29,358 bases of DNA from a virus (IMGVR_UViG_3300020404_001543:1-29358), one strand, 5' to 3'; shown: positions 6,338 through 27,566, numbered from the stretch's first letter. The notes: generated by a model not told the origin, from the sequence alone. Translations and numbers: made by a program.

Positions 6338-7147
6338 ATGAATTACTATTCCGTTTTGGGCGTTCCAAAAAACGCATCTGATAAAGATATAAAAACTGCA
6401 TTTCGTAGACTTGCAAAAGAACATCATCCGGACAGAACTGGTGGTGATGATACACGTTTCAAACAAATAAATGAAGCATACGATACTCTTAAAGATCCAG
6501 ATAAGCGTAGCATGTATGACAATCCACAAAGACAAAATAGTTATAATTTTAACAGTCAAAATGTTAATGACATTTTTAGTAGTTTTTTTGGCAATATGCA
6601 ACAAAGGCAAAGACGTAATGCAAATATAGGTTTATCCGTAAAAGTGTCTTTAGAAGATATTGCAGCAGGAAAAAATGTTGTAGGCAGATATGCACTTAAT
6701 AGTGGAAAAGAAGAAATAGCAACTATACGTGTTCCTAAAGGAATAGAAAGCGGAACAACTATGCGTTTTCAAGGACTAGGAGATGATAGTATTAGTCAAG
6801 CACCTAGAGGTGATTTACATGTAAAAATTATTGTAGAAAATCATCCAAGATTTACAAGAGATAGGTTGCATTTGAAAACAAAATGTAGTATAAATGTATT
6901 ACAGTTAATTTTAGGCACAGAAATAGTAGTTGACAAATTAGGCGGTGGTCCGCTTGTTGTTAAGATACCCCCAGGCACAAATCCAGGCACTGTATTAAGC
7001 GTAGCAGGACATGGACTTCCTGACATGAACAGTGGACGCATGGGTAATTTATATTTAGAAGTAAAAGGTATTACACCAAAAATAAATGATTATGAAATAT
7101 TACAAAAGGTTAATGATTTAAATGATGAAATTGATAAAAGCACCTAA
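6338..7147 (+). CDS. DnaJ/CbpA-like J-domain co-chaperone
   Basis: J-domain proteins stimulate the ATPase of DnaK (Hsp70) and deliver clients. Here residues 1-62 are a complete J domain with the HPD motif at residues 30-32 and YDTLKDPDKRSMYDNP after it. Residues ~65-95 are a short Asn/Phe-rich linker (FSSFFGNMQQRQRR), and ~97-260 match the C-terminal substrate-binding domains (VSLEDIAAGKNV, PRGDLHVKIIVENHPRF, VPKGIESGTTMRFQGLG). The CxxCxGxG zinc repeats are absent, so it is a type B/CbpA-like protein. At 269 residues it is somewhat shorter than CbpA (about 306). It overlaps the deformylase gene by 26 bases and must act with host DnaK, since none is seen here. Confidence 0.93.
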   Translation: MNYYSVLGVPKNASDKDIKTAFRRLAKEHHPDRTGGDDTRFKQINEAYDTLKDPDKRSMYDNPQRQNSYNFNSQNVNDIFSSFFGNMQQRQRRNANIGLSVKVSLEDIAAGKNVVGRYALNSGKEEIATIRVPKGIESGTTMRFQGLGDDSISQAPRGDLHVKIIVENHPRFTRDRLHLKTKCSINVLQLILGTEIVVDKLGGGPLVVKIPPGTNPGTVLSVAGHGLPDMNSGRMGNLYLEVKGITPKINDYEILQKVNDLNDEIDKST

Positions 7148-7643
7148 TACAATGCTTGAAAATAAAGTTCAAAGATTTGATTTGGATAATGTTCATCCTG
7201 CACCTATTGCTTTGGAAATGTTAGATTTGATGGTGAAAGAAAAAGGCATAGGAATAAGTGCTAATCAAGTAGGATTTGACGGACAAATATTTGTAATGAA
7301 AGCACAACATAATAAAAAACATGGTGATTATGTTACAGTGATAAATCCAGTGATAAAAGGATTAAGCAAAGAATTAGAAATAGGAAAAGAAGGATGTTTG
7401 AGTCATCCGGGATTATTTTTGAAGGTAAGACGTCCTATTAGTGCAATGGTGGAGTTTGATACACTTACACCAGACATGAAAAATACAATGCACGTTGAGG
7501 CAAAATTTGACGATGAAGATGCTAGAGTATTTTTACATGAATATGATCATTTATATGGTATTCAGTTTATAGATAGAGTAAGCAAACTTAAACTTGAAAT
7601 GGCTGAACGTAAAAGAAATAAAAAAAGGAAAGTCAATGGTTGA
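7122..7643 (+). CDS. def: Peptide deformylase
   Basis: The enzyme removes the formyl group from the initiator Met of new proteins. All three motifs of the metalloenzyme are intact in the 173-residue protein: GIGISANQ at residues 42-49 (GxGxAAxQ with Ser in place of one Ala), EGCLS at 90-94 with metal ligand C92, and HEYDH at 139-143 with two His ligands and the catalytic Glu. The C-terminus carries a basic tail (ERKRNKKRKVNG). An adjacent second ATG (7125) is equally possible. The gene overlaps dnaJ-like and clpA-like genes at its two ends. Phage deformylases are known from marine phages. Confidence 0.95.
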   Translation: MMKLIKAPNTMLENKVQRFDLDNVHPAPIALEMLDLMVKEKGIGISANQVGFDGQIFVMKAQHNKKHGDYVTVINPVIKGLSKELEIGKEGCLSHPGLFLKVRRPISAMVEFDTLTPDMKNTMHVEAKFDDEDARVFLHEYDHLYGIQFIDRVSKLKLEMAERKRNKKRKVNG

Positions 7644-9882
7644 ACCAAGTAAAGAACTACAAGCAGTTTTTGAAAAAGCTATGAAAGATGCAATTAAGTT
7701 AACACATGAATATGTGACACTTGAACATCTTTTATATGCAATGCTCTGTGAAGATACTTTCGGCACTATAATTACAGGATATGGCGCCGATGTTGAGCAT
7801 ATGAAAAAAGAATTAGAAAACTTTCTAAAAACAAAATTAGATGATATCAAAACTAATCAAAAAGCACACAAGCCTAAAAAAACGCAAAGTGTAGAAAGAG
7901 TGCTTAACAGGGCTTTTACACAAGTATTGTTTAATGGACGTAATAACATAGAAATAGTTGATGTATTTTTAAGTATATTAAGTGAAAAGAAAAGTTGGTC
8001 TTATTTCATTACGCAAAAAGTTGGCATACAAAAAGAAAAATTTGTTGATTATATGAGCAACGAAGCATTTGATATCATTGAAGGTGATGATGATATCAAT
8101 ATGGGAGCTGCAAACAGAGCTCTTAGAGATTTTACAACTGATTTGAATCAACAAGTAAAGTTAAACAAAGTTGACCCTGTAATTGGCAGAACAGAAGAAA
8201 TTGAACAAGTATCACTAGCATTAGGCAGAAGAACAAAATCTAATGTATTGATGGTAGGCGATCCTGGTGTAGGTAAAACTGCGATTGCTGAAGGATTAGC
8301 TTTTAAAATTGTTAACGAAGATGTGCCAGAGTTTTTGAAAGAATATAATGTGTTTACATTAGATATAGGAAGTATGCTTGCAGGTAGTAAGTATAGAGGA
8401 GACTTTGAAGAACGTTTTAAATTAGTTTTACAAGCACTTTCAAAAAAAGGTAAAACTATTATGTTTATTGATGAAGCACATATGATAAGCGGTGCAGGTG
8501 CCGGCGGAGGCAACAGTGCAAATGATCTAGCAAATATGCTAAAACCAGCACTAGCTAAAGGAAATATCAAAGTTGTAGCATCAACAACTTGGGAAGAATA
8601 TAGAAAGTATTTTGAAAAAGATCGTGCATTGATGCGTAGGTTTCAAAGAGTCACAATCGACGAGCCAAGTAGAGAAAACACTGTTTTGATATTACAAGGT
8701 GTAAAAAAATATTATGAAGATTATCATGCAACTGAGATAACAGAAGATGCGATAGAAGCAGCAGTAGATCTTAGTATTAAATATCAAACTGATAAGAAAT
8801 TACCGGATAAAGCTATTGATTTAATTGATGTTGCATGTGCTAGATTCAAAGTAAACAATCAAACAGAAAACAAAATAGTTGCAGAAGAAAATATACAATT
8901 CGAACTTGCTAAAATGGTGAATTTACCAGAGGAACAAGTAAAAGAGCGAGAAAGCGAAAACCTAGCACACTTGGAGGATAACTTGAAAAAAGTTGTTTAC
9001 GGACAAGACAAGGCTATTGAAGATATTGTTGATAAAATTTTGGTTGCACAAGCTGGTTTGAAAAGTGAAAACAAACCAGTAGGTAGTTTTGTGTTTATGG
9101 GTCCAACAGGTGTTGGTAAAACAGAACTTGCTAAACAATTAAGCACTCAATTAGGTGTAAAACTAGTGCGTTTTGATATGAGTGAATATCAAGAAAAACA
9201 TAGCATCAGTAAATTAATAGGATCTCCTCCTGGTTATGTAGGATATGAAGATAATGCAGGTGGTTTGTTAATTGATAAATTACAAGAAAATCCTAATTGT
9301 GTTTTATTATTAGATGAGATAGAAAAAGCACATCCTGATGTAAGCAGTATACTATTACAAATTATGGACAACGGAACAGTAACAGGTAGTAATGGTAAAG
9401 AAGCAGATGCACGTAATTGCACACTTATTTTGACAACAAATCTTGGCGCACAAGAGGCAGAAAAAAATGCAATAGGTTTTGGTGAAGACATGGATAAAGA
9501 TTATGAAGACACTGAACTCAAAAAATTCTTTGCGCCTGAATTCCGTAACAGACTAGATGGTGTAATTACATTTGGAAAATTAGACAAAAATACTATGATG
9601 AAAATTGTTGGTAAGTTTTTAGTTGAATTGAAAAATCAAGTAGTTGCAAAAAATATTTCATTAACACTTACTGATGAAGCATTAGATTATCTTGTTGATA
9701 AAGGCTTTGATAGAAAGATGGGAGCTAGGCCTTTACAACGTGTGATTGATTCTGACATAAAACGTCCTTTGAGTAAGAAAATGCTATTTGGAGAACTTAA
9801 AAATGGCGGCAGTGTTATCATTGACTTTAGAGAAGATGAAATAAAACTCGATTGTGTTACTGATGAACTTGAAACTATTTGA
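7636..9882 (+). CDS. clpA: ClpA-like AAA+ unfoldase
   Basis: ClpA unfolds proteins and feeds them to ClpP. The ATG at 7636 (MVEPSKELQAVFEKAM), with AAAAAAGGAAAG ahead, is preferred over an upstream in-frame ATG inside the deformylase gene. The 748-residue protein has a Clp N domain (about 1-145, THEYVTLEHLLYAML), a first AAA module with Walker A GDPGVGKT and Walker B TIMFIDEAH, and a second with GPTGVGKT, LLLDEIEKAHPDV and FAPEFRNRLD. There is no long ClpB middle domain. The tripeptide IGF at residues 613-615 matches the position of the ClpP-docking IGL/IGF loop of ClpA/ClpX. No clpP is seen, so it would use host ClpP. Confidence 0.93.
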   Translation: MVEPSKELQAVFEKAMKDAIKLTHEYVTLEHLLYAMLCEDTFGTIITGYGADVEHMKKELENFLKTKLDDIKTNQKAHKPKKTQSVERVLNRAFTQVLFNGRNNIEIVDVFLSILSEKKSWSYFITQKVGIQKEKFVDYMSNEAFDIIEGDDDINMGAANRALRDFTTDLNQQVKLNKVDPVIGRTEEIEQVSLALGRRTKSNVLMVGDPGVGKTAIAEGLAFKIVNEDVPEFLKEYNVFTLDIGSMLAGSKYRGDFEERFKLVLQALSKKGKTIMFIDEAHMISGAGAGGGNSANDLANMLKPALAKGNIKVVASTTWEEYRKYFEKDRALMRRFQRVTIDEPSRENTVLILQGVKKYYEDYHATEITEDAIEAAVDLSIKYQTDKKLPDKAIDLIDVACARFKVNNQTENKIVAEENIQFELAKMVNLPEEQVKERESENLAHLEDNLKKVVYGQDKAIEDIVDKILVAQAGLKSENKPVGSFVFMGPTGVGKTELAKQLSTQLGVKLVRFDMSEYQEKHSISKLIGSPPGYVGYEDNAGGLLIDKLQENPNCVLLLDEIEKAHPDVSSILLQIMDNGTVTGSNGKEADARNCTLILTTNLGAQEAEKNAIGFGEDMDKDYEDTELKKFFAPEFRNRLDGVITFGKLDKNTMMKIVGKFLVELKNQVVAKNISLTLTDEALDYLVDKGFDRKMGARPLQRVIDSDIKRPLSKKMLFGELKNGGSVIIDFREDEIKLDCVTDELETI

Positions 9883-16845: not shown

Positions 16846-19386
16846 ATGCGTGTTTTAGATATCCTTGAAAATTTTAGTCCCTTAGATGCAGGACAAATAG
16901 GCACTCAAAATGTTCGTCCTATAAGTAGGACAGATCATATGCCTAATCAAGTTATTGCAATAAAACAAAATCTCAAAAGACATACACTTGTAACAAATAG
17001 AACACAACAAGGACCACAGTTAGGTGGTAAAGCATGGTCTGGAACTGAGTCTGGTGAATGGACACAAGCATTAGATAATGCATTATTAGCGTGGAAGAAA
17101 AGTATAAACTTACAAACTCCTCCGTATCGAATAGACAGTCCTTTGTCAACAACAACACCACCAACACTAAGAGCAATAGACATAGACTTTTTACAAAAAC
17201 GTGAGCTTACACGTAACGGTTTACTCAAAAGTGATGAGTCTAGACGAACTATACAAACCAAAGGTATATTTGATGGATTTACATATGAACAAAAAATACC
17301 TGGAAAAGTAGAAGACGCAATAGATACAAATACAATGTTGGAAGCAGTTGGTCCATCAGCATGGTGGAGAATAGCAACTGAAATAGAAGAAAGCAAACGT
17401 TCATCGCCTGGTGACAGTTGGTTAGATAAAACATCTAAAGAGGAAGTTTCTAGAATTGTCCAAGAGTTAGCACTTTACATTTATACACGAGATCGTGACA
17501 TGACATATAGTGACGAAGCATGGCAAACAACATTTGACAGAAAAGCAAGACAAACAACAGCAGTTTATGCAGACGGCACAGAAGAACAAATTGCTTCAGG
17601 CTCAATTACTATACGTCCTGACCAACAATTTACAAAATATTCTAATATGGCAATAAAGCTATGGGAAAAGGACAACATTAAATTACAAGCTCGTCAAGAC
17701 GAAGTTGATCGAGCAGAAAACACTGCTACAACCTCTAGCACATTAGATGATACTACATTAAGAGCAATGGCAACTGCGTTGAACAAGGCCTTCGAAAATA
17801 GCATGGTAGCTGCACTACCTGGAGGTAGAAGTTTTTTTAATGATATAGAAGCTATAGCAGCACAACTAAGAAATCTTAACACAGCTAAAGACTTTGATGA
17901 TTTAGCAACAATATATCAACAGATGTTTAACGAAGAATTACATGAAAGAATACATAGTGAATTGTCTAAAGAAGATTATGCAAGTATTTTTGTAAGTCGT
18001 ATGATTGGTATACAAAGGATTGCACCTAGCTTTTTACATGCAAGTATAAATTTTGCTCAGAATACTGAGGTTGAAACTAATTATGAAGGTAATACTTATA
18101 CAATAAGCAAAGAAGATAAAGTTGGATTACAATCTGAATTAGATCATCATGTCACTAATTATAACGATTATAATGTAATAGTAGTAGATGGCATATATCG
18201 CAAAGCAATAGAAACATCAGGTGGAGTTATGCCTGATTTTGATGTGGCAGCAGAGCCTGAACAAATTAGAGATGCGCAAGTTCTTTTTATAAATGTTATT
18301 AACACCAGTTATCCTGAAATGGTAGCATTTTATGTAAGAGCAGAACCGTTTGATGCAGCAAGTGTAGATTTAGGTGGAGCTAGATTAAAAAATATTATAA
18401 ATGATGCTGCAAAACTTATGACTTCTCCTGACGATGCAAGACGTTACATTACAGAACAAATAGCAGATGACAGGGGTTGGTTGACTGGCGAAGATGGCGG
18501 AGAACCTGGAGCAAATATATATTTTGATGAGAAGTATTTGGCTGAAGGATTGAACGATCGTAACTTCCCAGTGTTAAGTGCTGATGACAAAGCAGAGCTA
18601 GATGGTGCAGAAACTCAGCTGTCAGATCAAATACTAAGCAGTGACGAGGCAACTGTAAGAGCAGCAGTTGATGAATTATTACAATTACCCGATGGTGAAG
18701 AAAAATGGAAAAATATTTACAGAGACGCTGCTCCAGGCACATGGTTAGATTTACTGCCAACAATGGGTGATGGTAAAAATGACGTAAAAGAATTTATTGA
18801 AAATGCAACAAATAGTAATAGCCCTATATTAAGAGTAGCAACTACATATGATTTAGCTGTAGCTGCGCCAAGAGCGATGGCAGAACTATTTAAAGATGCA
18901 ATGAAATTTGCAATTAGCACAGGTGGCACAGATGAAGATTTAATAACTGCGTTAGTTGCTCAAATTAAAGATCGTGAAGATTATGAATTAATAGACGAAC
19001 GTTACAAACAATTACCTGGAGTAAATGATAGCCTTATTGATGACTTAGCAAGTGAACAATTATTTGGCATGTTTGGATATGGCTGGTATGGACAACTTGC
19101 GTCTATAATAGGTGAACCAGAAAGACTAGAAGCTATACGTGTAGAACTAGATAGTGAAACTATTGATGCACTACAAGACCTAGAAAATGATCCATCTATA
19201 GAACATATAGAAGCAATGAAAAGAAGAACTTCTAACAACGCTATAAAAAGCAATGAAGATCAATTAGAATTAATTGTTGATAGATTAGAAGCAACATTAG
19301 GTGGTTTTGCAAACACAGGGTCTGCAGAATATGTAATGTTGATGGATTATTATAGAGAACTTAAAGAAGCTCTAGACGAGTTGTAA
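16846..19386 (+). CDS. Large hypothetical protein, probable virion component
   Basis: An 846-residue acidic soluble protein starting MRVLDILENFSPLDAG, with I-L-E at residues 6-8, resembling the N-termini of its neighbours. It has no membrane helix or recognisable catalytic motif. The N-terminal part is Thr/Gln/Arg-rich (GGKAWSGTESGEWTQAL, similar in feel to peptidoglycan-binding repeats), and the rest alternates helices with long acidic stretches and ends in Leu/Glu-rich helices. Such size in this cluster suggests an internal head or injected virion protein. It follows its neighbour with no gap and overlaps the radical SAM gene by one base. I do not recognise it. Confidence 0.7.
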   Translation: MRVLDILENFSPLDAGQIGTQNVRPISRTDHMPNQVIAIKQNLKRHTLVTNRTQQGPQLGGKAWSGTESGEWTQALDNALLAWKKSINLQTPPYRIDSPLSTTTPPTLRAIDIDFLQKRELTRNGLLKSDESRRTIQTKGIFDGFTYEQKIPGKVEDAIDTNTMLEAVGPSAWWRIATEIEESKRSSPGDSWLDKTSKEEVSRIVQELALYIYTRDRDMTYSDEAWQTTFDRKARQTTAVYADGTEEQIASGSITIRPDQQFTKYSNMAIKLWEKDNIKLQARQDEVDRAENTATTSSTLDDTTLRAMATALNKAFENSMVAALPGGRSFFNDIEAIAAQLRNLNTAKDFDDLATIYQQMFNEELHERIHSELSKEDYASIFVSRMIGIQRIAPSFLHASINFAQNTEVETNYEGNTYTISKEDKVGLQSELDHHVTNYNDYNVIVVDGIYRKAIETSGGVMPDFDVAAEPEQIRDAQVLFINVINTSYPEMVAFYVRAEPFDAASVDLGGARLKNIINDAAKLMTSPDDARRYITEQIADDRGWLTGEDGGEPGANIYFDEKYLAEGLNDRNFPVLSADDKAELDGAETQLSDQILSSDEATVRAAVDELLQLPDGEEKWKNIYRDAAPGTWLDLLPTMGDGKNDVKEFIENATNSNSPILRVATTYDLAVAAPRAMAELFKDAMKFAISTGGTDEDLITALVAQIKDREDYELIDERYKQLPGVNDSLIDDLASEQLFGMFGYGWYGQLASIIGEPERLEAIRVELDSETIDALQDLENDPSIEHIEAMKRRTSNNAIKSNEDQLELIVDRLEATLGGFANTGSAEYVMLMDYYRELKEALDEL

Positions 19387-20234
19387 TGTCTAAAATTCAA
19401 ATTCCTATTGCACAATGGTATATCAGCCATACGTGTAATCTGTCTTGTGCTAATTGTCTTAGTTATAATAATTTTAACATATCCGGACACGAACGTTGGG
19501 AAGACAACAAGGATGACGTAAAACGCTGGGGAAGTCTAGTAACTGTTGATGACTTTAGCATAATCGGCGGCGAACCTTTAGGAAATCCAGATTTGGATTT
19601 ATGGGTAAAAGGCATAAGCAAATACTTTGACTCAAAACAATTCAAAATATGCACAAACGGAGTGCAATTAGACCGTTGGACTGATCGTATTTTAGAATGG
19701 ACAGAATTAGGAGCAATATTAGAAATACACACAAAAGATCCTAAACATTTATCTACTACTTGGAAGGTTATATACGATATATTTGGAGACAATATTGTTT
19801 GGTCAAAAGGCACAGAACACCATAATATTGGAAAACTAAATGGTAAAGTAGTTGTATATCAATCTATGGATGCAAGTTTTTTTACATGGGGCACAAAAGG
19901 AAAAAATGATTATGGTGAATACGAACTATTTGAAACTAATCCTAAACATACACACAATTTGTGTCCTTGGAGTCATTGTCATTATTTTTATCAAGGTGCA
20001 TTATGGAAATGTGGCACTATGGTTGGCGCACAGGAATTTGTAAAGAAATTTCCTGTAAAAAAAGAACACAAAGATATAATTTTAGATTACAAACCTATAC
20101 AAATTACTGCCGAACTTGAACAAGATATAAAAAATTTAAAATATATGTTGCCACAGTGTGGCCTTTGTAACAATGTTCTTAAAACACATAATAGATTAGA
20201 AGCAACACAAAAGAAAATAAAAGAAAATGTTTGA
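19386..20234 (+). CDS. Radical SAM enzyme with auxiliary-cluster cysteines
   Basis: Radical SAM enzymes use a [4Fe-4S] cluster to cleave S-adenosylmethionine and start radical chemistry. The 282-residue protein carries the CxxxCxxC motif as C17-NLS-C21-AN-C24, and GGEP at residues 61-64, which positions SAM. The C-terminal third has five further cysteines (C193, C198, C209, C258, C261), consistent with a SPASM/twitch-like auxiliary iron-sulfur cluster. Proteins of that kind often modify peptides or sugar-linked substrates; the substrate here is unknown. It overlaps the large upstream protein by one base and the next small gene by 8 bases. A QueE role is unlikely given the extra cysteines. Confidence 0.88.
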   Translation: MSKIQIPIAQWYISHTCNLSCANCLSYNNFNISGHERWEDNKDDVKRWGSLVTVDDFSIIGGEPLGNPDLDLWVKGISKYFDSKQFKICTNGVQLDRWTDRILEWTELGAILEIHTKDPKHLSTTWKVIYDIFGDNIVWSKGTEHHNIGKLNGKVVVYQSMDASFFTWGTKGKNDYGEYELFETNPKHTHNLCPWSHCHYFYQGALWKCGTMVGAQEFVKKFPVKKEHKDIILDYKPIQITAELEQDIKNLKYMLPQCGLCNNVLKTHNRLEATQKKIKENV

Positions 20235-20730
20235 AGAATCTGTAAGAAAATGGATAACAAATTTTTTGACTATAGCAAATCCAGCCTTTAATGATTTACC
20301 TCCATGTCCTTTTGCAAAACAAGCAATGTTAGATAATAAAATTGTTTATCATTTTTTAAATCCAATAGATAGTTTAACTATGCCAGAATATATTGCCTGC
20401 GAACTTGAAAATTTTAGTTACCACTGGCCTAAAGGAAAAGAAGTTGTAATTATTGGTTGTAAAAAAGAAAATATATCAAGTGACGATTTGAGCGATTGTG
20501 TAGAAGATAGTATGGAACGTTTTTTAACAAAACGTGGATATATTGCTTTAGAAGATCATCCTAATGCAGAAGAAAAAGTTTTGGATGTATGTGTAAATCA
20601 AGGAGAATTTGTTTTAGTTTTATTACAAGAAAAAGAAAAACTGCAAAGAGCAAGAAATATTTTGAAGAGGCAAAACTACTATAAATACTGGACGAAAGAT
20701 TATTATGAAGATGTTGTAAATGATTTGTAG
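20227..20730 (+). CDS. Small protein with CPFA motif, candidate radical SAM partner
   Basis: The 167-residue protein starts MFEESVRKWITNFLTIANPA and contains FNDLPPCPFAKQAML at about residues 21-35. The Pro-Pro-Cys-Pro-Phe-Ala motif is superficially like the LCPFA motif of DUF1415 proteins, but the rest does not obviously match. Four more cysteines occur (residues ~59, 78, 91, 123). It directly overlaps the radical SAM gene and the next gene, so the three are probably a unit. Its role could be as substrate or partner of the radical SAM enzyme; this is inference from position. Confidence 0.65.
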   Translation: MFEESVRKWITNFLTIANPAFNDLPPCPFAKQAMLDNKIVYHFLNPIDSLTMPEYIACELENFSYHWPKGKEVVIIGCKKENISSDDLSDCVEDSMERFLTKRGYIALEDHPNAEEKVLDVCVNQGEFVLVLLQEKEKLQRARNILKRQNYYKYWTKDYYEDVVNDL

Positions 20731-21172
20731 AATAGATTTAGAAAAAACTAATTACAAACAAATTGATTTCACATTACTTGGTTTACAAGATTTTCCTGCC
20801 TGCGAAAATATATATAAAAAATATATTGACCACAACGAAATAGAAAATCCTCATCCTGTCTTTGAAGAAGAATGGAATAAAGAAGCAAAATATAATGCAG
20901 ACGTATTTGGTTATTTTGATGATAAAACATTGATTGCTTGGAGTCTTACATATAAGTTTCCTAGTAAAAAAACAGTTATAGCAGATCAATTTGCTTGGGA
21001 TTATAATAATCCTAAACTAAAATTAGGTTATAGAACTATTAGAAGCGAATGTTCATACTATAAGCAAAAAGGATATAAATATTTTATATTAGGCGACCCT
21101 GATAAGTATAAAGAAGAATTACAAGGATATGAAATTATAGAAAGAGGTATGGATGGCATTTTTAGTTCATAA
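20720..21172 (+). CDS. Hypothetical protein, weakly GNAT-like
   Basis: A 150-residue protein starting MICRIDLEKTNYKQIDFTLL. The middle (FGYFDDKTLIAWSLTYKFPS) and later part (GYRTIRSECSYYKQKGYKYF followed by ILGDPDKYKEEL) have the strand-helix-strand order of GNAT acetyltransferases, although the acetyl-CoA loop R/Q-x-x-G-x-G/A is not evident. It overlaps both neighbours (11 and 20 bases). It may belong to the radical SAM unit. The GNAT suggestion is tentative; the protein may simply share the fold. Confidence 0.6.
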   Translation: MICRIDLEKTNYKQIDFTLLGLQDFPACENIYKKYIDHNEIENPHPVFEEEWNKEAKYNADVFGYFDDKTLIAWSLTYKFPSKKTVIADQFAWDYNNPKLKLGYRTIRSECSYYKQKGYKYFILGDPDKYKEELQGYEIIERGMDGIFSS

Positions 21173-21797
21173 TTTACCACTGCAAAGTGTATATGTAAGA
21201 AAAGAATTTTTATATGATCACGAACGTGGACATGGAGAGTTTACACCTGGCATTTGGGTAAGTGTCAAAAGCATTGAAGCAAAAGCATTGTATTTCGAAA
21301 CACTATTAACAGATTATGGAGCATTATATGATAAACTACCTATTTCAGCATTTGTTTGGAAAACAGATCATGGTGATCTTTTACCTTTGGATGTTCTTCA
21401 GCTTTGGGACTGCTTCGATTATGATATTACAGTTATCCAAAAGCCCCTACTGTCACGCTGCGAGTTTTTCGGGAAAGACAAACATATGCATCCAGGAGAA
21501 TACTGTTTCACAATAGACAATGCACATCGTGATCATTCTATACTTGACACAAACTTTAGTGAACACGACCCTGAGCACAAATCGTTCAATGTTATAAAAC
21601 TAGACAATGGTCAATTTGCTGCACAACCCAATAACAGAGTCATATGGCGTGATAGCTCTTTGACACCAGAAAACCTACTTACACCAGATTTCAAAGTTTG
21701 CACACAGAACTACAAAGTTGAAACTGAACCAAAATGGAGTGTTGGACATACTGATGAATGGCAGTATAAAACACTTGACGAAGAGTCAGAAAAGTAG
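21153..21797 (+). CDS. Conserved marine T4-like phage protein
   Basis: The 214-residue protein begins MAFLVHNLPLQSVYVRKEFL and contains ALYFETLLTDYGALYDKLPI, HPGEYCFTID and VCTQNYKVETEPKWSVG. I recall this protein as highly conserved in T4-like cyanophages, without a known function; it lies before the dsbA-like and polymerase genes. It has no membrane helix or recognised catalytic motif. It ends just inside the sigma-70 promoter that drives the next gene. Codon use at 21400-21480 looks less AT-rich than around it, but this is not marked. Confidence 0.75.
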   Translation: MAFLVHNLPLQSVYVRKEFLYDHERGHGEFTPGIWVSVKSIEAKALYFETLLTDYGALYDKLPISAFVWKTDHGDLLPLDVLQLWDCFDYDITVIQKPLLSRCEFFGKDKHMHPGEYCFTIDNAHRDHSILDTNFSEHDPEHKSFNVIKLDNGQFAAQPNNRVIWRDSSLTPENLLTPDFKVCTQNYKVETEPKWSVGHTDEWQYKTLDEESEK

Positions 21798-21830: not shown

Positions 21831-22097
21831 ATGAGCGATAGAGTCTATGGTGCCGAAGAGAAGGCAAAGTTAGAGCGGCTTGTAAAAGAAGGCGTCACAG
21901 TATTACAAGAAATAGAAGATTTACAAGGCGGATTAAAAGAAACAGTAAAAGCCGTATCTGAAGAGCTAAATGTAAAATCATCGCTAATTAATAAAGCAAT
22001 AAAGATTGCTAAGAACAGAGATTGGCACAATGTTGCAGATGCTCATGAAGATCTCGAAACACTTGTTGCTACATTAGGATATGATAAGGAGGCTTAA
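21831..22097 (+). CDS. dsbA: DsbA-like double-stranded DNA-binding protein
   Basis: The 88-residue protein (MSDRVYGAEEKAKLERLVKE, LQGGLKETVKAVSEELNVKS) is helical and charged, matching the size and pattern of the T4 DsbA family, a small dsDNA-binding protein that in T4 affects late transcription. In T4-like cyanophages a homologous-looking protein sits near gp43, as here. A strong ribosome-binding site AAAGGAG precedes the ATG and a consensus sigma-70 promoter lies upstream. The stop overlaps the polymerase start by one base. The family assignment is from recollection of the pattern rather than a distinctive motif. Confidence 0.6.
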   Translation: MSDRVYGAEEKAKLERLVKEGVTVLQEIEDLQGGLKETVKAVSEELNVKSSLINKAIKIAKNRDWHNVADAHEDLETLVATLGYDKEA

Positions 22098-24760
22098 TGC
22101 CATACGTTGACGCATTTTTTGATAGAGATGCAGACATTATACGTGCAGTTGAGCGCCGTGATGGCAAACGCCATTATCAAGAATATCAAGCAAAATATAC
22201 ATTTTATTATGAAGATCCAAAAGGCAAATACAAAAGCATATATGATGATCCACTAACTAGAATTGTATGCAAAAATACAAAAGACTTTCGCAAAGAACTT
22301 GCTATAAACAAAGGCAAGAAAATGTTTGAAAGTGATGTGAATCCAATATTTCAATGCTTGAGTGAACATTATCTTAATCAAGATGCTCCAAAACTTAATG
22401 TTGCATTTTTTGACATCGAGACTGACTTTGATCCAGAGCGTGGCTTTGCTGATCCAAGCGATCCTTTTATGCCAATTACTGCTATTACTGTGCATTTACA
22501 ATGGTTAGATGCATTGGTAACATTTGCATTGCCGCCAAAGACACTTACTATGGAAGAAGCACAAGCAGAATGTGCAGATTTTGACAACACATACTTGTAT
22601 GCAAATGAAGGAGATATGCTTGAAGCATTCCTTGATATAATAGAAGATGCAGATATTATAAGTGGTTGGAACAGTGAAGGGTATGATATTCCTTACACTG
22701 TAAATCGTGTTTCTCGTGTGTTGAGCAAAGATGATACTAGACGTTTTTGCTTGTGGAGACAACTGCCAAAGCGTAGAGAGTTTGAAAAGTATGGCAAAAC
22801 TGCTGAAACGTTTGATACTATCGGTCGTGTGCATATGGATTATCTTGAACTGTATCGTAAGTATACATATGAAGAACGCCACACATACAGACTAGATGCT
22901 ATTGGTGAAATGGAAGTTGGTGAAAACAAGACTGTGTATGAAGGCACACTTGATCAGCTTTACAACAACGATTTTAAAAAGTTTATCGAATACAATAGAC
23001 AAGACGTTGCACTATTAGATAAAATCGATAAAAAGTTACGCTTTATTGATCTTGCAAATGAAATTGCACATGACAATACTGTGCTACTACAAACAACAAT
23101 GGGTGCGGTAGCTGTTACAGAACAAGCTATTATCAATGAAACACACAATAGAGGATTTATTGCGCCAAATAGAAAAGAACACGAAGGTGGCACAGCGGCT
23201 GCTGGTGCATATGTTGCGTTTCCGAAAAAAGGTGTGCATGAATGGATTGGATCAATGGACTTGAACAGTCTATATCCAAGTGTGATTCGTGCAATGAATA
23301 TGGCGCCTGAAACTATTGTTGGTCAAATAAGGCCTGATCTTACAGATGAGATGTTGCACAATGCTACAACACTTGAAAAGAAATCATTTGCTGCTGCTTG
23401 GGAAGGTCGTTTTGGCACACTTGAATATGAAGCAGTAATGGATGAACGTAAAGACATTTCGTTAACATTAGATTTGGAAGACGGCACTAGTCATGTGCTT
23501 AGTGGTGCAGAAATATATAAGTTAATTTTTGACAGTCAACAACCTTGGATGCTGAGTGCAAATGGAACTATATTTACATATGAAAAAGAAGGTATTGTTC
23601 CTGGTTTGTTAAAACGTTGGTATGCAGAGAGAAAAGAATTACAAGCAAAAATGCGCAAAGCAATCGCAGCAAACAATGATACAGAAATAGCATTTTGGGA
23701 CAAAAGACAACTTGTTAAAAAGATTAACTTGAACAGTTTGTATGGTGCTATTCTTAATCCAGGTTGTAGATTCTTTGATAAACGTATTGGACAGTCAACT
23801 ACACTTACTGGCAGACAAATTGCAAAACATATGAGTGCCGAAGTTAACAAAATTATCACAGGAGAATATGATCACGTAGGAAAAGCAATTATATATGGTG
23901 ACACAGACTCTGTTTACTTTAGTGCATATCCAGTATTACAAGAAGAAATCAAACAAGGTCAAGTTCCTTGGGGCAAAGACAATGTAATTACACTATATGA
24001 TCAAATTTGCAACCAAGCAAACACTACATTTCCAGACTTTATGATGCAAGCATTTCATTGTCCAAAAACAAGAAGTGATGTTATTGCGGCAGCAAGAGAA
24101 GTTGTTGCAGATACAGGCTTGTATATTACAAAAAAACGATATGCAGTGCGAGTGTATGATTTAGAAGGTGATAGAAAAGACAATGACGGTGCATTAGGTA
24201 AAGTAAAAGCAATGGGCTTAGACTTGAAACGTAGTGATACTCCAGTGTTTATGCAAAACTATTTGAAAACTTTGCTTGATATGGTATTACAACTAAAAGA
24301 CGAAAAAGAACTGTTAGAAAGTATTACAGAGTTTCGACGTGAATTTAAAGAACGTCCAGGATTTGAAAAAGGTTCACCAAAACGTGCAAACAAGATTGGG
24401 CACTATCAGCGTCTTGAAGAAAAACAAGGCAAAGCAAACATGCCCGGACATGTAAGAGCAAGCATCAACTGGAATACACTTAAACGTATGAATGGCGATA
24501 AGTATTCGCAAGAGATTGTTGATGGTATGAAAGTTATTGTATGTAAACTAAAACAGAATCCACTAGGCTACACAAGTGTTGCGTATCCTACAGATCAATT
24601 ACGTCTGCCGGATTGGTTTAAAGAACTGCCGTTTGATGGTGATGCAATGGAAGAAGTAATTATTGACAATAAATTAGGAAACCTAATTGGTGTGCTAAAT
24701 TATGATCTAGAAAGCACAAAACAAAAAACAACATTTAGTAATTTATTTGAATGGGATTAA
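22097..24760 (+). CDS. 43: T4-like family B DNA polymerase (gp43)
   Basis: The replicative polymerase of the phage, with 3'-5' proofreading. At 887 residues it is close to T4 gp43 (898). Visible motifs in order: exonuclease I FFDIETDFD with D106/E108; motif A DLNSLYPSVIR from D388; motif B KKINLNSLYGAI from K541; motif C YGDTDSVYF with D602 and D604. All catalytic residues expected are present. The C-terminus ends NLFEWD; T4 gp43 also ends in an aromatic/acidic tail that contacts the clamp gp45. AAGGAGG precedes the ATG. The clamp gene lies about 3 kb downstream, beyond the sugar-nucleotide module. Confidence 0.98.
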   Translation: MPYVDAFFDRDADIIRAVERRDGKRHYQEYQAKYTFYYEDPKGKYKSIYDDPLTRIVCKNTKDFRKELAINKGKKMFESDVNPIFQCLSEHYLNQDAPKLNVAFFDIETDFDPERGFADPSDPFMPITAITVHLQWLDALVTFALPPKTLTMEEAQAECADFDNTYLYANEGDMLEAFLDIIEDADIISGWNSEGYDIPYTVNRVSRVLSKDDTRRFCLWRQLPKRREFEKYGKTAETFDTIGRVHMDYLELYRKYTYEERHTYRLDAIGEMEVGENKTVYEGTLDQLYNNDFKKFIEYNRQDVALLDKIDKKLRFIDLANEIAHDNTVLLQTTMGAVAVTEQAIINETHNRGFIAPNRKEHEGGTAAAGAYVAFPKKGVHEWIGSMDLNSLYPSVIRAMNMAPETIVGQIRPDLTDEMLHNATTLEKKSFAAAWEGRFGTLEYEAVMDERKDISLTLDLEDGTSHVLSGAEIYKLIFDSQQPWMLSANGTIFTYEKEGIVPGLLKRWYAERKELQAKMRKAIAANNDTEIAFWDKRQLVKKINLNSLYGAILNPGCRFFDKRIGQSTTLTGRQIAKHMSAEVNKIITGEYDHVGKAIIYGDTDSVYFSAYPVLQEEIKQGQVPWGKDNVITLYDQICNQANTTFPDFMMQAFHCPKTRSDVIAAAREVVADTGLYITKKRYAVRVYDLEGDRKDNDGALGKVKAMGLDLKRSDTPVFMQNYLKTLLDMVLQLKDEKELLESITEFRREFKERPGFEKGSPKRANKIGHYQRLEEKQGKANMPGHVRASINWNTLKRMNGDKYSQEIVDGMKVIVCKLKQNPLGYTSVAYPTDQLRLPDWFKELPFDGDAMEEVIIDNKLGNLIGVLNYDLESTKQKTTFSNLFEWD

Positions 24761-25046: not shown

Positions 25047-25537
25047 AAATTGCAATTACTGGACACACTAAAGGTATTGGAAAAGCTGTATTTGAAAAAA
25101 ATAGTAATGCAAAAGGCTTTAGCCTAACAAGTGGATATGACATAAAAAATAGTGTTGATAGAAACAATATAGTAGATCAAATACAAGATTGTGATGTTTT
25201 TATTAACAATGCGTTTGATAATTACGCACAATGTAACATGTTATTTGATATTTGGAAGTCTTGGAAAGATACAAATAAAATCATTATATCAATTGGCAGC
25301 GATGTAACCAAATACACTATGTCAACAAAACGTCTTGAAATTTTGGATTACTATAATTATAAATTAACTCTAAAAGATCTACATGAAAGGTTGCAAAATC
25401 TAAATACAAGTGTTAATATGAAATATATAAGTTTTGGTTATGTTGCTACAGAAAAATCTATACAAATGAATATACCAGAAAACATGATGATTTCAGTAGA
25501 CGAAGCAGTTGAAAAAATAATGGAGTTATGTAAATGA
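25043..25537 (+). CDS. Short-chain dehydrogenase-like Rossmann protein
   Basis: The 164-residue protein shows the SDR landmarks: TGHTKGIG at residues 6-13 (nucleotide-binding TGxxxGxG), NNAF at 55-58 (where NNAG is usual) and Y103-xxx-K107 (catalytic YxxxK), with S83/S86 upstream. It is much shorter than standard SDRs (about 250), so the substrate-binding part is reduced. It begins with TTG overlapping the upstream stop, with GGAAGAGAG ahead. It is in the sugar-nucleotide gene run, suggesting a role in modifying nucleotide sugars; the reaction is unknown. Confidence 0.8.
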   Translation: MKIAITGHTKGIGKAVFEKNSNAKGFSLTSGYDIKNSVDRNNIVDQIQDCDVFINNAFDNYAQCNMLFDIWKSWKDTNKIIISIGSDVTKYTMSTKRLEILDYYNYKLTLKDLHERLQNLNTSVNMKYISFGYVATEKSIQMNIPENMMISVDEAVEKIMELCK

Positions 25538-25941
25538 AAGTAGGATTTACATGTTCAACATTTGATTTATTACATGCAGGGCATGTGCAAATGTTACGTG
25601 AAGCAAAAGAACAATGTGATTATTTAATTTGTGCATTGCAAATGGATCCTAGTGTTGATAGAGCAGAAAAAAATGCTCCTGTGCAAACCATTGTAGAGCG
25701 TTATACACAACTAAAAGGTGTAAAATATGTAGATGAGATTATACCATATGGCACCGAAAAAGACCTAGAAGATATATTGACAATGTATCATATAGATGTT
25801 AGAATACTAGGAGAAGAATACAGAGACAAAGACTTTACTGGTAAGGATATTTGCCGAAAACGTGAAATTGATTTGTATTTTAACAAACGTGATCATAGGT
25901 TCAGCACAAGTGATCTAAGAAGAAGAGTATGCGAAGTATGA
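25534..25941 (+). CDS. Cytidylyltransferase (TagD/RfaE-like)
   Basis: This family transfers a nucleotidyl group from CTP or ATP to phosphorylated alcohols or sugars. The 135-residue protein has the catalytic HAGH at residues 14-17 within FDLLHAGHVQML and a C-terminal RFSTSDLRRR resembling the ISTT.I.R motif. Length matches TagD-type enzymes (about 130). It overlaps both neighbours by 4 bases. Glycerol-3-phosphate cytidylyltransferase or a sugar-1-phosphate nucleotidyltransferase are both possible; the substrate cannot be read from sequence. It fits with the phosphomannomutase-like and dehydrogenase genes beside it. Confidence 0.88.
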   Translation: MKVGFTCSTFDLLHAGHVQMLREAKEQCDYLICALQMDPSVDRAEKNAPVQTIVERYTQLKGVKYVDEIIPYGTEKDLEDILTMYHIDVRILGEEYRDKDFTGKDICRKREIDLYFNKRDHRFSTSDLRRRVCEV

Positions 25942-26102
25942 TTTGGACTTTATGGATAATAAGTTCTATTACTGGACTAGAAGAACCTAAATATACCATG
26001 TATGGAAACTATGAAAAAGCAATAGAATGTTATCAAGCATGGTATGAAGTAACAATTAATTTTACTGAAGGGGAGGTAGCATACTGTGGAACAAGCACAT
26101 AA
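25938..26102 (+). CDS. Small hypothetical protein, 54 residues
   Basis: It begins ATGA over the stop of the cytidylyltransferase gene (MIWTLWIISSITGLEEPKY) and ends by overlapping the GTG start of the next gene by 17 bases. The sequence is Trp/Tyr-rich with two Cys. A pattern of NYEKAIECYQAWYE resembles the short domain seen in marine phage proteins of unknown role. It exactly fills the space between two convincing genes, so it is probably real. Confidence 0.55.
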   Translation: MIWTLWIISSITGLEEPKYTMYGNYEKAIECYQAWYEVTINFTEGEVAYCGTST

Positions 26103-26808
26103 ATTTATATTTGATGTAGATGGCACATTGACGCCTAGTAGAGGTAAAATAGATTTAGAATTTAAGACATTTTTCGACACATTTTGCAAGTTAAACGATG
26201 TATATCTTGTAACAGGATCCGATAGAGATAAAACTATTGAACAAATAAGCGAAGAAACTTATAATCTTTGTCAGCGTGTGTATAATTGTTCTGGAAACGA
26301 TGTATATGAAAAAGATCAACATATTCGTTCTGCACAATTTTGGCCAAGTAAAGAATTATGCAAATTTATGCATAGTTGGCTCAACACTAGCAGTTTTCCT
26401 CTACGCACAGGTAATCATATCGAACAACGAACAGGCACTCTTAACTTTAGTATAATTGGACGTAATTGCACATTAGGTGAACGTATGTTATATGTTAAAC
26501 ATGACTTAGCAAATAGAGAAAGAGAAAGTATTGCGTTTCAAATTAATTTAGATTTTCCTGAAGTTTCTGCAACAGTAGGTGGCGAAACAGGTATAGACAT
26601 ATATAAAAAAGGTGCTGACAAAAGCCAAATATTAAGTGACTTTGAATCTACAGACAAGATATACTTCTTTGGCGACAAATGCGAACAAGGTGGTAATGAC
26701 TTTCCAATAGCACAAAGATTAGACACAAAAAAAGTATGTAATGTTAAAGATTGGAAAGATACATATGAACGTTTACAATATTTTCAAGAGGCAAAGTTAG
26801 CAGCATGA
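26086..26808 (+). CDS. HAD-family phosphomannomutase-like enzyme (eukaryotic PMM type)
   Basis: Phosphomannomutase interconverts mannose-6-P and mannose-1-P, feeding GDP-mannose. The 240-residue protein has DVDGTLTPSR with nucleophile D10 and acid/base D12, and further motifs like those of eukaryotic PMM: VTGSDRDKTIEQI, NFSIIGRNCTLGER, GGETGIDIYKKGADKSQIL and FFGDKCEQGGND. These indicate the HAD type IIB PMM subgroup rather than the bacterial alpha-phosphohexomutase family. The start is GTG, chosen because GGGGAGG lies 9 bases upstream. The enzyme overlaps the next gene by 4 bases. Length is near the PMM norm (about 245). Confidence 0.88.
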   Translation: MEQAHKFIFDVDGTLTPSRGKIDLEFKTFFDTFCKLNDVYLVTGSDRDKTIEQISEETYNLCQRVYNCSGNDVYEKDQHIRSAQFWPSKELCKFMHSWLNTSSFPLRTGNHIEQRTGTLNFSIIGRNCTLGERMLYVKHDLANRERESIAFQINLDFPEVSATVGGETGIDIYKKGADKSQILSDFESTDKIYFFGDKCEQGGNDFPIAQRLDTKKVCNVKDWKDTYERLQYFQEAKLAA

Positions 26809-27566
26809 TTATAGCAGGTTATGGCTTCGTAGGCAAGGCGCACGAGCTATTATTTAAAAATCATAGACGTGAAATTCAAATATATGATCCGCCTAAAGGT
26901 ATGGAAGCAGACTTACAAAATACAAGTGCAGTTATTGTTTGTGTTGCTACACCTCAAGCAGATGACGGAACTTGTGATATGAGTGCAGTTTATGATGTTG
27001 TATCAAAAATACCCGATCACACACCAATAATGATCAAAAGCACAATAAGTTTAGATGGTTGGAACAATCTAAGAAAAAAGTTTTCTAATCATACACTTTG
27101 TTTTAGTCCTGAATTTTTGAGAGCTGCAAACTTTATGAATGATGTAAAAGATCTTGATAATGTTATACTAAGCGGTGACACAGATTATTGGCGTGATCAA
27201 TACAGTTATAATTGGCCTAGAATAAAATTAGTTATTGTAGAGCCAGAAGAAGCTATTGCTATCAAATATTTTAGAAATGCTTTTTTAGCCACTAAAGTAA
27301 GTTTCTTTAATGAAATTTTTGATTTTTGTGAAGCACACAATATAGATTTCAAGCAAGTTAGGGCCGGAGTAGCAGACGATAAGCGCATAGGTGATAGTCA
27401 TACTTATGTATGGCCAGAAGATAACATAAGAGGATGGGGTGGATTTTGTTTTCCAAAAGACACTAGTGCGTTATTAAAAATGGCAGCAGAAAAAAATATT
27501 AATCTAAATACACTATCAGCAGCAGTGTATTACAACACTAAAATAAAACTTGACAATGACAAATAA
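26805..27566 (+). CDS. Nucleotide-sugar 6-dehydrogenase, short form
   Basis: The 253-residue protein resembles UDP-glucose/GDP-mannose dehydrogenases, which oxidise a nucleotide hexose to a uronic acid with two NAD+. It has the N-terminal Rossmann GYGFVGKA, VATPQADDGTCD, FSPEFLRAANF, and the catalytic Cys motif GGFCFPKDT. It ends at the central domain and lacks the C-terminal UDP-binding domain of the ~430-residue family, so it is either a natural short form or truncated. Upstream phosphomannomutase suggests GDP-mannose as substrate, giving GDP-mannuronate, but UDP-glucose is not excluded. The 3' end contains the -35 of the gp45 promoter. Confidence 0.85.
   Translation: MIIAGYGFVGKAHELLFKNHRREIQIYDPPKGMEADLQNTSAVIVCVATPQADDGTCDMSAVYDVVSKIPDHTPIMIKSTISLDGWNNLRKKFSNHTLCFSPEFLRAANFMNDVKDLDNVILSGDTDYWRDQYSYNWPRIKLVIVEPEEAIAIKYFRNAFLATKVSFFNEIFDFCEAHNIDFKQVRAGVADDKRIGDSHTYVWPEDNIRGWGGFCFPKDTSALLKMAAEKNINLNTLSAAVYYNTKIKLDNDK

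Follow-up and report, generated by a model that had tools for sequence, protein, structure and literature searches.

Viruses that infect bacteria, uncultured and for the most part marine, share the CPFA and ATEC genes as a two-gene module and probable functional unit. In the DNA studied here a radical SAM gene precedes them, but it is an accessory, optional neighbor, and the three genes are not one fixed trio. ATEC, named for its ATE_C-like sequence, is probably an aminoacyl-tRNA-dependent type of transferase, judged from its sequence and its predicted model, and CPFA is a distant relative of the DUF1415 family as supported by profile comparison.

The window, by which we mean the whole stretch that was analyzed, is an unplaced virus record from IMG/VR comprising 29,358 bases. 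Its radical SAM, CPFA, and ATEC ORFs are all intact (Table 1), with an overlap of 8 bases between the first and second and of 11 bases between the second and third. The original prediction had read this tight overlap as the sign of a pathway, but overlaps are the rule in the window, occurring at 26 of the 39 consecutive boundaries listed, so the arrangement carries little information and alone is no argument for one. The ORF listing of this tightly packed three-ORF locus contained no small precursor-peptide gene. The large upstream gene, for which Pfam gave no family match, directly precedes either the radical SAM or the CPFA gene in related contigs. The DNA polymerase of the window is closest to the polymerases of Sinorhizobium phage Phosso and Agrobacterium phage Atu_ph07 (50% identity), both of which are very large phages, and relatives of the locus lie on contigs of up to 256 kb. 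The window also holds a cluster encoding a cytidylyltransferase, a phosphomannomutase-like HAD protein, and a UDP-glucose dehydrogenase, which suggests sugar-nucleotide metabolism.

Table 1. Features of the window discussed in the text, with coordinates counted from its first base.
Feature	Length (aa)	Coordinates	Strand	Basis or remark
Peptide-deformylase-like protein		7122-7643		ORF translation only
Clp-ATPase-like protein		7594-9882		ORF translation only
Upstream gene	846	16846..19386	+	No Pfam match; left edge of variable site
Radical SAM protein	282	19386..20234	+	CX3CX2C, GGEP, C-terminal twitch-like motif; accessory at the site
CPFA protein	167	20227..20730	+	Distant DUF1415-like protein, by profile-profile comparison and conservation
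ATEC (ATE_C-like protein)	150	20720..21172	+	Probable aminoacyl-tRNA-dependent transferase, from sequence and model
PHROG 3704 protein	214	21153..21797	+	phrog_3704, E=1.5e-104
DNA polymerase		22097-24760		Closest to Phosso and Atu_ph07
Sugar-nucleotide-type cluster		25534-27566		Three genes named in the text

Linkage of the CPFA and ATEC genes

When viral contigs were scanned with the CPFA protein alone, 49 loci were recovered and ATEC was adjacent in 49 of 49. In the alignment-based scans, the best 80 of 515 confirmed CPFA matches and the best 80 of 484 ATEC matches were kept. After loci with identical pair proteins were dropped, the comparison set consisted of 81 distinct loci, which were recovered in part with CPFA and in part with ATEC as the query and therefore under-count single-gene loci where contigs are short. 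The two genes are adjacent in 65 of these and separated by exactly one gene in 16. Adjacent genes run in the order CPFA-ATEC on one strand at 58 of the 81 loci and lie on opposite strands at 7; with one gene between them, they run in the order ATEC-x-CPFA at 15 and lie on opposite strands at 1. The intervening gene encodes the PHROG 3704 protein in one lineage and a DUF6614 protein in another. Phage lineage, gene order, strand, and neighbors all vary around the pair, and a linkage that outlasts changes in order, strand, and neighborhood is good evidence for a functional connection between CPFA and ATEC. Such a link between these two proteins is the part of the original prediction that is supported.

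CPFA relatives that have no adjacent ATEC were found in cyanophages and in Puniceispirillum phage HMO-2011. The members of the pair have also been shuffled: the CPFA and ATEC proteins of one locus (L055) are 56% and 86% identical to those of the window, and at another (L007) the values are 70% and 51%. Divergence of CPFA against ATEC gave r=0.64 overall, which is about the same as for CPFA against DNA polymerase, and a correlation this moderate does not indicate a tight complex. A search of the open-access literature, a scope that leaves out subscription papers and preprints, turned up no previous account of a phage ATE-like pair.

Relationships of the two proteins

The third protein of the locus had been described as GNAT-like, which fits its predicted fold, but it is better placed with the aminoacyl-tRNA-protein transferases than among CoA-using GNAT enzymes. 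Pfam ATE_C (PF04377) matches 30 of 33 aligned ATEC members with a best E of 2.3e-6, and three members from three phage groups exceed the cut-off of 25 bits (L060, 28.7; L033, 26.6; L052, 26.2), with the window copy just short of it at 23.7. In the PDB, the family profile finds the yeast-type arginyltransferase 7wfx (E=0.0097), and when it was compared with a profile of ATE_C proteins of bacterial genomes, the alignment ran colinearly along the full length (probability 87%). The acetyl-CoA pyrophosphate loop, [QR]xxGx[GA], occurs in 0 of 54 non-redundant ATEC members. From these observations, together with its model, we read ATEC as a probable transferase of the aminoacyl-tRNA-dependent type, and its sequence supports placing it as a minimal relative of the catalytic half of the arginyl/leucyl-tRNA-protein transferases. 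With the ATE1/Bpt proteins it shares an ATE_C-type sequence, the block LG...S...E...G..Y...G......YK, and a predicted GNAT-like fold; it differs from them in being half the usual length, in its shortened C-terminal loop, in being viral and always found with CPFA, and in having no ATE_N, the cysteine-rich N-terminal domain for which Pfam gave no match in the 150 residues. Searches of isolate phages with three different ATEC members gave no match.

The AlphaFold2 model of ATEC is confident, with a pLDDT of 91.7. In Foldseek searches with this model, lysyl-phosphatidylglycerol synthases (MprF and DUF2156) took the top ranks; ATE1 and FemX were significant too, and these best matches, with Sbb17 among them, are transferases that depend on aminoacyl-tRNA. 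Because GNAT acetyltransferases reach comparable scores, the choice between these families cannot be made from the fold by itself. MprF/DUF2156 and FemX reach TM-scores of about 0.6 by query length but have no sequence-level match to ATEC, and they are enzymes of membrane lipids or the cell wall whose domains are larger or in tandem.

The PPCPFA motif that was noticed in the second protein is real: C27, P28, and A30 are present in 60 of 60 sequences of the expanded, non-redundant CPFA family, as are W9, Q134, Y151, and Y152, while D110, H111, and N124 are near-invariant. The several cysteines reported alongside the motif are present too, but C27 is the sole one that is conserved. Profile-profile comparison aligned CPFA with DUF1415 over 130 columns (probability 92.8, score 48.3), bringing both the CPFA motif and a His-Pro motif into register, and 52 decoy families used as a control scored at most 25.5. 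The two families share the W...CPFA start and the His motif, but CPFA has no NRSPYP block, and the Pfam model of DUF1415 (PF07209) did not match the CPFA family consensus at E up to 5. DUF1415 is a bacterial family for which we know of no function.

A second, weaker likeness is to DUF6875 (PF21780), the "cytochrome P422" heme proteins. Matches were found in 23 of 34 CPFA members, which are mutually related and so do not count as independent evidence; other families match one or two. The scores lie below the 24.5-bit cut-off (12.6-14.4 bits where shown, 14.4 for the consensus, with a best single-member E of 0.0065), and no single CPFA sequence matched any Pfam family above cut-off. This sequence likeness covers only the N-terminal third of CPFA, including the CPF region. 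DUF6875 proteins are reported to be heme-binding, tryptophan-oxidizing enzymes (2026 paper, PMC13307353). By comparison, the invariant Cys27 and the near-invariant His111 of CPFA may bind heme or a metal. DUF6875 reference sequences were found in 0 of 296 Bacteroidota genomes. A scan of genome contigs with CPFA gave one relative (L061), 31% identical and beside a terminase-like protein in a contig filed as a Bacteroidetes MAG; this contig probably comes from a phage and ended up in the bin of a bacterium.

The predicted CPFA model is confident (pLDDT 94.4) but had no convincing fold match in the PDB, and in the viral library it matched only other uncharacterized phage proteins. Methyltransferase folds among the PDB matches were rejected because of their low TM-scores (0.25-0.36). 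We also considered that CPFA might be the missing ATE_N half of a split ATE, an idea dropped by eye since CPFA aligns with DUF1415 instead.

The radical SAM gene and other neighbors

The radical SAM protein carries C17-x3-C21-x2-C24 together with GGEP, the combination that defines the superfamily, and the five additional cysteines that had been pointed out are C193, C198, C209, C258, and C261; ICTNG contributes a ninth cysteine, which is not part of this C-terminal set. Among 50 non-redundant relatives, C17, C21, C24, C193, C209, C258, and C261 are kept in all 50 and C198 in 32, so the extra cysteines are, with that exception, conserved as the original prediction required. GGE is present in 50 of 50 and the proline in 48. 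The Pfam Radical_SAM model matches the window copy just below cut-off (E=2.9e-6) and the family consensus above it (34.4 bits against 29.5). Auxiliary clusters are held by seven cysteines in SPASM domains and by four in twitch domains, both of which had been raised as candidates for this protein. The C-terminal motif C193-x10-G204-x4-C209 ... C258-x2-C261 is invariant, and its four cysteines (CX10GX4C ... CX2C) fit a predicted twitch-type auxiliary cluster; the full seven-cysteine SPASM pattern was not found in the 50 relatives compared. CX3CX2C, GGEP, and a four-cysteine C-terminal set are also shared with MoaA, NifB, and BtrN-type twitch enzymes. Relatives in viral contigs were found only by alignment search, a single radical SAM sequence having returned none. 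The nearest relative in an isolate phage, from Synechococcus phage S-SCSM2R (25% identity), sits among glycosyltransferases and an amidinotransferase.

Co-occurrence of the three genes across phages, a check suggested with the original prediction, holds for the pair but not for this gene, an outcome that goes part of the way toward refuting the trio. A radical SAM gene of the window type lies directly upstream of the pair only in the window and in five other contigs (L017, L019, L020, L021, and L022), and in L019 and L021 it is a cut-off gene. Relatives with 59-73% identity occur without the pair in L211, L213, and L214, where other genes come next, and relatives with 38-43% identity elsewhere often follow a small gene before DNA polymerase or lie in unrelated neighborhoods. 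By motif-based count, any radical SAM gene falls within 5 kb of the pair at 16 of 81 loci; among the 28 loci whose flanks are complete the count is 8, and a gene of the window type is that near at 6 of 81. Another family, rSAM71, adjoins ATEC in L018, L195, and L207, and an overlapping radical SAM gene is present in L088. The radical SAM genes that turn up again and again near the pair belong to different families. A variable site, which extends from the 846-aa gene or the gene in its place to DNA polymerase, swaps radical SAM genes (L211, L213, L214, and L221-L238); in contigs of the L222 type it also holds one 167-aa and two 330-340-aa genes of no assigned family.

The PHROG 3704 protein, represented in 114 phage records and widespread in cyanophages, is a frequent neighbor of the pair, and in the gene order of one lineage (L125-L147) it alone separates ATEC from CPFA. 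PHROGs labels it "ferredoxin," as do some cyanophage records, but its sequence, inspected by eye, does not show an evident ferredoxin arrangement of cysteines, and the label may be wrong. In another viral group (L018, L023, L033, L169, L195, L203, and L207), DUF6614 and a gene resembling glycine amidinotransferase adjoin the pair. A nitroreductase-like gene and several radical SAM genes, of the SPASM or another type, accompany them, and this neighborhood is possibly a larger metabolic island. DUF6614 and the amidinotransferase-like gene also lie beside the pair in L052, L053, and L204.

Possible functions of the pair

In the mechanism we propose, ATEC would take an amino acid from an aminoacyl-tRNA and join it to an acceptor amine, most simply the N terminus of a protein or peptide. 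CPFA would then modify the acceptor or the product of that step, perhaps by redox chemistry at a heme or metal that involves Cys27 and His111. The radical SAM protein would be an independent enzyme of the twitch type whose gene comes and goes at the variable site of the pair, and its substrate may be theirs or a different one. That the pair attaches an amino acid from a charged tRNA and then modifies it, possibly by oxidation, is a tentative reading that falls somewhat short of an even chance, and most of that weight comes from the transferase half. The fuller version, in which the pair of marine phages adds the amino acid to a host or phage protein or a small molecule and a DUF1415/DUF6875-type enzyme oxidizes the added residue, is unlikely to hold in all its parts. 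In one phage group (L027:7007-7867 and L030), the gene immediately upstream of the pair encodes a 286-aa core like that of class II aminoacyl-tRNA synthetases (in L027, Pfam tRNA-synt_2 matches at E=1.7e-15), a neighbor that may be counted in favor of transfer. The idea resembles the pearlin (PEARL) system, whose first step is an aminoacyl-tRNA-dependent addition (PMC9505594), in that an added residue would then be oxidized. PEARLs, however, are LanB-like rather than GNAT-fold proteins and use a precursor peptide, which was not seen at this locus.

Several other explanations account for part of these observations. ATEC may be an N-degron writer whose N-terminal Leu, Arg, or other tag sends host or phage proteins to Clp degradation, with CPFA preparing or regulating the substrate. 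The similarity to ATE_C favors this, as do the peptide-deformylase-like and Clp-ATPase-like genes of the window, but such genes are common in marine phages and so add little, ATEC has no ATE_N domain, and ClpS was present in 0 of 12 viral records with the pair or part of it, several of them fragments, although host ClpS could serve. We consider this reading rather doubtful. Still more doubtful is a reading of ATEC as a plain GNAT-superfamily N-acetyltransferase that has CPFA beside it as an unrelated neighbor. Several small-molecule acetyltransferases do appear among the fold matches with similar TM-scores, and Acetyltransf_1 weakly matches four ATEC members, but only ATE_C reaches its curated cut-off, the CoA loop is missing throughout the family, and lasting pairing with CPFA is not expected of unrelated neighbors.

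A single natural-product-like pathway of all three genes, acting on a peptide or a sugar-linked substrate, was the original suggestion and now seems very unlikely. Radical SAM genes of several families do recur within 5 kb of the pair, as do DUF6614 and the amidinotransferase-like gene (15-16 of 81 loci), but at most of the pair loci no radical SAM gene is close by, those that are present come from different families, the nearest relatives of the one in the window are also found where the pair is not, and the locus contains no small precursor-peptide gene. The pair might instead be a counter-defense or host-takeover module whose biochemistry only resembles aminoacyl transfer. It is small and mobile, and in one lineage it occupies the variable site between a large gene and DNA polymerase, a placement typical of accessory phage genes; even so, we regard this as highly improbable.

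If the pair does add an amino acid and then oxidize it, it would be a virus-encoded protein modification not described before. Should the transferase reading of ATEC be true, hundreds of uncultured viral contigs would encode a relative of the N-degron transferases that is minimal and stands alone, together with a dedicated partner. Amino-acid tagging would then be one more means, beside those already known, by which phages remodel their hosts, and the pair would offer a tractable handle on DUF1415.
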